A stretch of 64,000 nucleotides of DNA, taken from contig NZ_CP054140.1 of the NCBI RefSeq assembly GCF_016446285.1, positions 2,399,501 through 2,463,500 on the forward strand, given 5' to 3'. Origin of the DNA: Desulfobulbus oligotrophicus. Its GTDB lineage: Bacteria; Desulfobacterota; Desulfobulbia; Desulfobulbales; Desulfobulbaceae. How positions within the stretch are numbered: the stretch's first letter is position 1; every line of letters begins with the position of its first letter. The translations under genes were made by a program, and so were the position numbers. The notes below the pieces were generated by a model. That model saw nothing but the letters and a program-made list of their open reading frames with translations, was not told the origin of the DNA and did no database searches. Positions 30,915 to 33,467 of the stretch are shown in pieces.

Positions 30915-31643
30915 ATTTCGTTACCTTTCATTTTATTTGAAGAGTCTACATTCAACGACGACAAGATGTTTGCATGGTCAGGTTTCCTCTTTCGGGAGAT
31001 TCAATATAGCGAAAATAAACACGCTGACAAGTGTTTTTTTAGACTATCCTAAATTTATTTGGAAACACTACGTGAAGCGGCGGAAAATATTCGCTATTTA
31101 CCTGGAGCTACTCTCAATCTATGTGAAATTACGTAAAAAATAACTGGGATCAAGGTGTGCCAGGATCGACTTTGTTCTGAATAATTTCGCATGACTGCAC
31201 GATCGGCTTCGGATATGGTTATGCGAAACTCCATGAAAAACAGATTTTCATCCTCAATGCGCCGACAGAAAAAAATGTCTGGTTGATGATAAATTTGTCA
31301 TATTTTCCTGTTGATGAAACAACAGGGCGTTGATGGTCCGCCGCAGCGGACCCGTTGAGACGAAAAAATACAAGATATTAAAGATTCCTGCAACTTATCG
31401 AGCAATCTCAAGGATGGTTCAAAAAGGAGTCGGTTTAATAACAGCTGACGCGCTTTCGTACCGACTAAACATTAATGTTACTTGTTCATATGGATACGGT
31501 TTTGATTGACAACTATATATTTTATAAAATATAACGAAAAAATTATTAATCCGGAGCCTCGCAAAGAGACACGGCCAACTCAACAGCCGGGATAACAAAC
31601 AGAAATATTCTAAAAACACAGTTCCGTGACAAGGAAGTTCAGC
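30915..31643. other. Intergenic region upstream of the cytochrome pair
   Basis: About 730 bp of AT-rich sequence. It contains a 7-bp hairpin GGTCCGC/GCGGACC (31335-31352) about 290 bp before the first cytochrome gene, of unknown use. No convincing reading frame is present. Promoters for the divergent DUF2325 gene and for the cytochromes must lie here. Confidence 0.45.
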
Positions 31644-32078
31644 ATGCACCGAACATTCGTTTTTTTGCTTTTATTCGTTTTTTTATTTAGCTTGCAAAAA
31701 ATAACCGTGGTTTCAGCCGATAACACCGAACCTCCTGTTCAACCAGCATATACAGGACCGGAATCTGTCATTATCCGATCAACCGTGGATGTAGAGGAAG
31801 TCCCCAAGCCGGCCTACTTACCTCACAAAAAACATCAATGGCTGGAATGCTATGGATGCCATCACGGCGTGGGACCTGACGGCAAGAAGAGCGATGCTAA
31901 ATTTGGATTTAAAATTGAGAAATGTGAAACATGTCATAACAGCACAAACGAATTGCCGATAAAAGTTGCAACACTCAAACGAGCCAGTCACAGGTTATGT
32001 CTGGGATGTCACCAGAAACAAAACAAGTTACTTGCACAATGTGATGTGTGTCACAAGGCACCAAGTGAACGACACTGA
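31644..32078 (+). CDS. Tetraheme cytochrome c (class III-like)
   Basis: 144 residues from the ATG at 31644, which has AAGGAAG upstream. A GTG at 31626 would add six residues without a better ribosome site. The signal peptide covers about 1-25. Four CxxCH heme sites (CYGCH, CETCH, CLGCH, CDVCH) and the PHKKHQWLECYGCHH opening are typical of class III cytochromes c, periplasmic electron carriers with low potential. The pentaheme gene follows 33 bp downstream, so the two probably act together. Confidence 0.85.
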   Translation: MHRTFVFLLLFVFLFSLQKITVVSADNTEPPVQPAYTGPESVIIRSTVDVEEVPKPAYLPHKKHQWLECYGCHHGVGPDGKKSDAKFGFKIEKCETCHNSTNELPIKVATLKRASHRLCLGCHQKQNKLLAQCDVCHKAPSERH

Positions 32079-32111: not shown

Positions 32112-33467
32112 ATGATATTTTATAAAAAGATTTTCACTGTCTTTGTTTTAGTATGCCTCCTGGATTATTCAGGAACAGTGTTTTCTGAAACCACAGACAG
32201 CGTCCCGATCGTTACGAAGACAACAGAATCTTCATCAGAGCCCAAGGCAAAAACAATTGCAGAACTGGCCGCTCGGTACGATTCGGCTCCATGCATGGAT
32301 TGTCATATGAATGTTTATGACGAATGGGAAAAATCACTCCATGCGCGATCAATCTTCGGCCCTGAAAAAGTCGGCAGAACAGCGGCAACGTTTAAAACAT
32401 TCATTGAAAATGGACTGAAGGAATGGCCCTACTCAGGAGTGAAAACACCGGAAGATGTGCAGATCAAGCATCTTATGCTGTGTGCAAAATGTCATCTTCC
32501 CCAACTCCAGGAAGCCGAAGAGAGTGTTGCCAAGGAACTGGTCGAAACTATTTATGCATACGTGGATGATCCGGACGACGAGGAGGCAAAAGAAGCCCTG
32601 GAATCATTGAACATCGGTTGCATGGTATGTCACAATCGCAACGCAATCACACATAAGTGGACAGATGGGACACCGGAAAAAGGTGTTGTGTATGGCAGCA
32701 AAGATGATGTCCATATGGATGACAAACATCCTTTCCTGAAAAAAAGCCCAATCATGAAAGAGTCCATCCAGTGTGGACAGTGTCATGGTTTAGGGCCAAA
32801 TTTTGAGCTCGAGAACCCTACCCAGTGTGCCACACTCTACGGAATTCACCTCTACACCTATATTCCTGATGGCGGCCAAGAGACCTGTCAGGAGTGCCAC
32901 ATGAGAAAAAGTGGGCTGGGTCACAATATCCAAAGTTATCGTGCTCAGGAAATGGTGAAAATGGCCCTGGATGTTCATGTTGAAGCCAAGGCATATCAAT
33001 GGCGCGACGTGACAACAACAACTCCAGAGGCGCATGTCATAGTCGAACTGACCAACAAAGCCGGCCATGCTATTCCCGATGGCTGACCGACCCCAAACCG
33101 AGTGGCACTGTATGTGACCGCAAAAACAAAAGATGGAAAGGAATTTTATTCTGAAGAAAAAATTTTCATGCCGATTCCACAGCAAATGGGTCGGGGTGAT
33201 AAGATGGGTCGGGGACCGTACGAAAAGAGTGGATTAATTCGTGACACCAGCATACCTCCTCTTCGAACCCTGAAAGAAGAGTTCACGATTCCGGTATACA
33301 CGGAAGGCGAGAAAGACGGAAAGATTCTAAGAAATATTATTGCCAATGACTTTATCGTCGATGTTGAGGTCTGGTATCTGCCCTACGGTAAAAAGGATGA
33401 CCCTGGTAATGCACAAAAATGGTTCGCAACGTCCAAAACGTTGCGTATAGAAAAGGGTGGAAAGTAG
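32112..33467 (+). CDS. Pentaheme cytochrome c, probable selenoprotein (UGA at codon 325)
   Basis: Read through the in-frame TGA at 33084-33086, this is a 451-residue periplasmic protein. The signal peptide covers about 1-25. Heme sites CxxCH are at residues 61, 124, 170, 221 and 259, and the WEKSLHA segment after the first matches cytochrome c554-type proteins. A C-terminal beta domain follows, starting NKAGHAIPDG, then the UGA, then PTPNRVALYVTAKTKDGKEF in the same frame. In related cytochromes, as I recall them, this GH..P.G.P..R motif is unbroken, so the downstream part belongs to the same protein. Alternatives are a nonsense mutation or a base-call error; a conserved frame with a SECIS-like hairpin argues against both. 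Partner oxidoreductase unknown. Confidence 0.7.
33102..33121 (+). promoter_or_regulatory. SECIS-like stem-loop downstream of UGA
   Basis: GTGGCAC (33102-33108) pairs with GTGACCGC (33114-33121) with one bulged A and a G-U pair, leaving a 5-nt apical loop TGTAT (33109-33113) that contains GU. The loop begins 22 nt after the UGA, inside the range known for bacterial SECIS elements read by SelB. Confidence 0.55.

Follow-up and report, generated by a model that had tools for sequence, protein, structure and literature searches.

A conserved in-frame UGA is very probably read as selenocysteine in an ExtKL-family pentaheme cytochrome c of Desulfobulbus oligotrophicus

Codon 325 of a pentaheme cytochrome c gene from Desulfobulbus oligotrophicus is an in-frame UGA that, with very high probability, is decoded as selenocysteine (Sec), and the product is assigned to the ExtKL (MccSep) family. 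The gene occupies positions 32112..33464 on the plus strand of the window, the whole stretch of 64,000 nucleotides that was analysed; the UGA lies at 33084..33086 (plus strand), and the product has 451 residues if the UGA is read as Sec. This reading is based on the continuity of the gene, the conservation of the UGA, a hairpin 3' of it, the replacement of Sec by Cys in paralogues, and the decoding machinery. The Sec call is correct and is a rediscovery rather than new, because ExtKL is already known from Geobacter papers, a review table, and the PDB entries of MccSep with a U325A name among them. The first-pass annotation, which had rated a Sec in a multiheme cytochrome as notable, overestimated its novelty: ExtKL is an established selenoprotein family in NCBIfam (NF040886), in the PDB and in the literature. 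The contributions of the present analysis are the pairing with a cytochrome c3 gene, the history of Sec and Cys in the family, and a lead concerning Cys239; priority is not claimed.

The open reading frame begins with an ATG at 32112, reaches the TGA at codon 325, and continues for another 126 open codons to a TAG at 33465-33467. The translation contains five CXXCH motifs (C61, C124, C170, C221, and C259), which is the number expected of ExtKL and the reason why the label "pentaheme" is correct. The UGA is embedded in the motif GHAIPDG-U-PTPNRV, in agreement with the pattern GHxxPDG-[UC] (in-frame UGA or Cys) that marks the family. The frame, the 126 codons that follow and this motif were thus reproduced as the first-pass annotation had given them. 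In order to compare the two parts of the gene, substitutions relative to five relatives (loci L001, L002, L003, L005, and L014) were counted. Past the UGA, the numbers at codon positions 1/2/3 were 10/5/64 for L001, 17/6/66 for L002, 25/16/63 for L003, 26/16/64 for L005, and 15/14/73 for L014. The same excess at third positions was found 5' of the UGA, and the amino-acid identity to the five relatives is 75-91% after the UGA and 74-89% before it. These patterns indicate that purifying selection at the protein level persists past the UGA.

The assignment to ExtKL follows from profile and sequence searches. The protein matches NF040886, "multiheme c-type cytochrome (seleno)protein ExtKL", with 585.9 bits, which is more than twice the equivalog cut-off of 250 bits; the match spans residues 28-446 and positions 15-422 of the 423 positions of the profile. 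Among the Pfam families, Cytochrome_C7 alone scored above its cut-off, and other heme families gave weak matches. The complete genome (3.10 Mb, one contig) contains one NF040886 match, with one TGA. A phmmer search of the PDB yielded MccSep (9WT8) with 540 bits; it is a full-length homologue whose Sec is likewise numbered 325. The entries 9WT8, 9WTA, and 9WTB, "Multiheme cytochrome c selenoprotein (MccSep)", have an X at residue 325, and 9WT9 and 9WTC, listed under the names MccSep U325A and MccSep, have an Ala. A literature search for MccSep found no paper on it.

In the available part of PMC5877670, gsu2937-gsu2936 (extKL) is proposed to encode a selenocysteine cytochrome, and a preliminary study is quoted as suggesting a role of extKL in selenite reduction. 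The gene cluster of the Geobacter homologue has been tied to the reduction of selenite and tellurite and to metal respiration in those portions of the published work that were accessible. The ExtKL protein of Geobacter sulfurreducens (GSU2937-2936) resembles the window protein in being pentaheme, in having one UGA/Sec, and in its C-terminal part past the UGA. The table of a 2026 review lists ExtKL and NF040886 with the redox motif entry "-" (PMC13188914, table section). For the small and large pentaheme cytochromes (sPHC and lPHC) of cable bacteria, membership in one family with ExtKL was proposed by the authors in the consulted excerpt of PMC11976967. For one cable bacterium, the same paper reports a structure of two genes, and the terms "selenocyst" and "selenoprotein" have 0 occurrences in it; as far as the excerpt goes, this two-gene homologue may be an unrecognised selenoprotein split at a UGA.

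The UGA is conserved across the family. A contig search yielded 50 loci, 46 of which carry a UGA at the aligned codon. These are all of the loci L001-L046, including the broken copy L045 and L029, whose frame is interrupted. No UGA is present at this codon in the four distant loci L047-L050 (23-25% identity); L048 has an Ala, L049 an Asp, and L047 and L050 are not aligned at this position. A sequencing error is therefore not a tenable explanation, and a chance UGA was rejected as well, the codon recurring across dozens of separate genomes. In a search of 395 genomes of the phylum with NF040886, 40 genomes had matches above the cut-off. Of the 50 matches in all, 43 contain one TGA, six contain no stop, and one contains a TAA. 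Each of the 43 TGA-bearing matches was read, and in every case the TGA is codon 325. The remaining seven comprise four with Cys325, one with Ile (G027), one with Val (G203), and one that ends before the codon at a contig edge (G203). The four Cys-for-Sec paralogues are L102 (G281:C10), L104 (G027:C12), L107 (G327:C21), and L109 (G289:C11), and all four genomes with a Cys copy also possess a UGA copy. The check that had been proposed, an alignment of orthologues at this position, consequently gave a UGA in nearly all of them and a Cys in a few; they do not end there. Within the genus of the window, the gene was found in four of the six genomes listed, with no match in G014 and G052; the listing left out 201 of the genomes that had no match.

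Several copies in these genomes deserve separate mention. The Cys copy of G027 lies in tandem with the Ile325 copy. The Cys-form copy of G289 (L109, 4132-5382, minus strand; also L156) carries a TAA in frame, within the 3' part, and may for this reason be decaying or contain a sequence error. The second ExtKL copy of Desulfogranum mediterraneum (L045, 2296-3515; same place in L154) loses its frame just past the UGA and is apparently a pseudogene; elsewhere this species has an intact copy with the UGA (L155).

It was further considered whether the UGA is a genuine stop, so that an ExtK protein would end at residue 324 and ExtL, initiated at the GTG at 33102, would be a separate small protein. 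The two locus tags of G. sulfurreducens, gsu2937 and gsu2936, are compatible with two genes (PMC5877670 and PMC6148476, in the sections available), and the GTG is located only 15 nt past the UGA. The TGA is indeed placed between extK and extL in the accessible text of PMC6148476, where a single protein is also considered possible. However, no Shine-Dalgarno-like sequence is seen by eye ahead of the GTG, as the first-pass annotation had remarked, and the GTG forms the base of the hairpin described below. Moreover, codon 325 is a UGA in 84 distinct alignment rows and a Cys in four. The position of the break also argues against two genes. An AlphaFold model built on alignment A1 (39 rows) has a pLDDT of 75.1 and a pTM of 0.73, and consists of a helical part with the heme motifs and a C-terminal beta-sandwich. 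This Ig-like sandwich comprises residues ~282-451 (32955..33464, plus strand; most VIA-align rows span residues 281-449), and the UGA site is a loop between the strands 302-315 and 330-339. A stop within this loop would therefore leave a broken domain. In addition, the hairpin is present past the UGA, and one PDB entry is named MccSep U325A. The two-gene explanation was rejected on these grounds and is regarded as highly improbable.

The best structural match of the model is the penta-heme cytochrome c552 of Thermochromatium tepidum (5ZE8; Foldseek E 2.4e-12), with a VIA-align Z of 18.7 and an rmsd of 4.1 over 302 aligned residues at 21% identity. Its overall fold is similar to that of the window protein, it retains a PHAMPTGAP motif, and one of its Cys residues aligns with C239, but the Sec position is occupied by an Ala. 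The other Foldseek rows appear generic (Ig-like) or spurious, and the MccSep entries are absent among the best 50 Foldseek matches listed (structure library to April 2026).

A bSECIS-like hairpin is located at 33102..33121 (plus strand). Its arms are GTGGCAC (33102-33108) and GTGACCGC (33114-33121, with one bulged A), and they enclose the loop TGTAT (33109-33113). The stem begins 15 nt and the apical loop UGUAU 22 nt after the UGA, so that the stem-loop predicted about 22 nt downstream was found in place. The rule for bSECIS elements, said to go back to Zhang and Gladyshev in 2005, is reportedly a G within the first two loop positions, and the loop UGUAU of this hairpin just 3' of the UGA has a G at its second position. 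A search of Rfam gave no match in 32950-33300.

The stability of the hairpin was assessed by means of synonymous re-codings. With the codon usage of the gene outside the hairpin region, the 30-nt hairpin segment has -9.0 kcal/mol compared to a mean of -4.3 for the re-codings, and 9 of 300 re-codings were equally low in energy. When the usage was instead taken from the pooled hairpin regions, which makes the test too conservative, 41 of 200 were equally low, which is not significant. The stability of the window's own hairpin is thus only moderately unusual. For 73 Sec loci, which are mutually related and therefore do not represent 73 independent tests, the mean z was -2.10 with each gene's own usage, compared to -0.12 for 437 control stretches taken from these genes, and 39 of the 73 had at most 5% of re-codings as stable; with pooled usage the mean z was -0.99. 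A stem at the position seen in the window or ~6 nt earlier is present in 72 of the 73 loci, a count that, like the two that follow, is descriptive because the stem patterns (A, A2, and B) and their thresholds were picked after inspection of the folds. In 15 loci, of the Desulfuromonas and Geobacter types, ACCGAC is paired with GTCGGT (at least six of seven pairs). In 57 loci the stem is located ~6 nt further on, like GTGG(T/C)../..GACCGC, with at least five of seven pairs. The SECIS stems of the Geobacter lineage and of the window's lineage thus differ in position by ~6 nt. The broken copy L045 has neither layout. Three of the four Cys forms likewise have neither pattern; the fourth, L109, forms six of seven pairs of one pattern, partly as G-U, and its stability is not unusual. 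The Cys form L104 has a low fold energy under pooled usage, with 0 of 200 re-codings as low.

The machinery for Sec incorporation is complete. The search for selA, selB, selC and selD, which had been suggested as a check, found all four in the genome, each with one match above its cut-off: tRNA-Sec with 71.5 bits (cut-off 47), SelB with 347.7 bits (cut-off 242), SelA with 619.2 bits (cut-off 268), and SelD with 361.5 bits (cut-off 125). SelB and tRNA-Sec would decode UGA325 at the hairpin that begins 15 nt 3' of it. The selD match (L069, C1:1078205-1079146) contains one TGA itself, and SelD is for this reason probably a selenoprotein here. One may also imagine that a different residue, such as Cys or Trp, is inserted at the UGA through near-cognate read-through or under a reassigned code, and the four paralogues with Cys as replacement would fit such a reading. 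Given the complete Sec machinery, the single TGA in each of the 43 matches, and the stability of the hairpin, it was rejected and is even more improbable than a genuine stop. Selenocysteine is the reading retained in the following.

The history of the site was deduced from a tree of 103 rows, a quick IQ-TREE calculation with SH-aLRT values only, which contains long branches and for which the program warns of possible false joins. In this tree, a well-supported branch has on one side 13 related multiheme cytochromes whose residue at the site is Ser, Thr, Asn, Asp or Val; the Val row among them (L125) is one long, unsure branch. All 84 Sec rows are on the opposite side, and the four Cys rows, the Ile row, and the Val row of the paralogues are nested among them. 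All labels can be accounted for by five state changes; for Cys, three are required. Given the rooting on these 13 outgroup cytochromes, Sec looks ancestral in the ExtKL clade, which includes rows from Nitrospirota and Desulfobacterota, and Cys looks derived from Sec about three times, in genomes that retain a Sec copy. Deep branches of the clade are formed by divergent Sec cytochromes (L041-L044, L046, and L119) with the motifs GHxIP[HY]GU and PHRVPDSU; the five divergent Sec cytochromes from Nitrospirota have 28-32% identity.

A candidate for a partner of Sec325 is Cys239 (32826..32828, plus strand), which falls between hemes 4 and 5 and is the sole invariant Cys of alignment A1 outside the heme motifs and position 325. 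It is present in all 88 distinct rows with Sec or Cys at position 325 (84 of 84 and four of four, respectively). Among the 13 outgroup rows with another residue at 325, 12 are without C239 and one, L130 with Asp, contains it; in such distant rows the C239 column is loosely anchored. A second outgroup locus with Asp325, L121, also has C239 and was too short for the count of 13, and the Ile325 and Val325 paralogues retain it. A strict coupling of the two positions was therefore discarded: it holds in one direction only, C239 being found also with Ile, Val, Asp, and, in T. tepidum, Ala. Since C239 thus occurs in some relatives lacking Sec or Cys325, it is a candidate partner and not an exclusive one, and a redox pair of Cys239 and Sec325 is possible and should be taken as a lead.

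The second group of residues to be considered are the heme ligands. His319 of the GHxIPDG motif (33066..33068, plus strand) is invariant in A1 and is a candidate distal ligand. Altogether, A1 contains four conserved candidates of this kind (H77, H201, H271, and H319) for five hemes, so that one heme could be open or weakly ligated. Sec325, predicted to be located in the loop of the Ig-like domain six residues past His319, might itself be an axial heme ligand rather than the redox partner of Cys239; its closeness to H319 and the missing fifth His would agree with this role. Such a ligand is hard to reconcile with the Ile or Val at position 325 in two paralogues and with the Ser, Thr, Asn or Asp in outgroups that retain GHxxP[TS]G. 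Furthermore, a heme whose sixth position lacks a strong ligand would be well suited to catalysis, and sPHC, the group to which ExtKL was assigned, is named among cytochromes with pentacoordinated hemes in the available portion of PMC11976967. Ligation of a heme by Sec325 is consequently considered unlikely. Sec325 probably has a more than structural role, in redox chemistry or substrate binding beside a heme and possibly in concert with Cys239.

The gene neighbourhood suggests a possible electron partner. A tetraheme class III cytochrome c of 150 amino acids (PF02085, E 3.6e-10) is encoded directly upstream at 31626..32075 (plus strand; ORF to 32078). Its stop codon is 33 nt upstream of the ExtKL start, and the two genes probably belong to one operon. 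Further upstream are genes for a DUF2325 protein and a DUF6600 protein; downstream are a phospholipase A1 gene, on the other strand and next to ExtKL, and a gene for tetrahydrofolate dehydrogenase/cyclohydrolase. Among L001-L046, a multiheme ORF directly upstream was found only in L001 and L002, both from Desulfobulbus and the nearest rows to the window in the tree; L003, L023, and L038 had too little upstream sequence for a judgement. L006 and L030, also from Desulfobulbus, have no multiheme ORF directly upstream. A promoter scan did no better than chance (4 sites compared to 4.6 expected), and 6 terminator-like sites were found compared to 2.8 expected. The last ExtKL codons contain an inverted repeat of nine pairs, one of them G-T, at 33425-33445 with a T-rich tail on the minus strand; it may be the terminator of the convergent phospholipase A1 gene.

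This arrangement differs from that of the Geobacter ext cluster. In the published cluster, as described in the part of PMC5877670 at hand, the porin gene extI precedes extKL, and genes for cytochromes with 12 and 10 hemes follow. In the Geobacter-type loci L017, L019, and L021, a non-heme ORF of ~380-410 codons lies upstream and ORFs with 12 and 9 hemes lie downstream, the 9-heme ORF extending to the end of the locus in two of the three; by ORF pattern, this layout resembles the cluster set out in those pages. In L024, the upstream non-heme ORF alone was found. The window's ExtKL gene, in contrast, follows the tetraheme c3 gene and is followed by the phospholipase A1 gene on the opposite strand; neither the porin ExtI nor other ext genes of an extHIJKL-type cluster are found beside it, which is no bar to membership of the protein in the ExtKL family.

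The N-terminal hydrophobic stretch and the c-type hemes suggest that the product is secreted and periplasmic, where it would exchange electrons with the tetraheme cytochrome c3 encoded upstream. A more speculative model, less likely than not but somewhat more probable than heme ligation by Sec325, makes ExtKL a heme-wired selenoenzyme. In it, Sec325 and Cys239 would form a pair of the selenenylsulfide type adjacent to a heme that is open or weakly ligated, and this two-electron chalcogen centre would exchange electrons with the one-electron hemes. Such a design would have arisen a single time, Sec being present since the base of the clade, and in the lineage of the window it may act as a periplasmic reductase linked to c3 instead of belonging to an outer-membrane conduit.

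A selenocysteine inside a multiheme cytochrome represents unusual chemistry. With the window, the ExtKL family gains a further member, encoded by a Desulfobulbus-type bacterium in a different gene neighbourhood, and the comparison yields two testable points: the identity of the partner residue of Sec, and the reason why Cys is found only beside a retained Sec copy.
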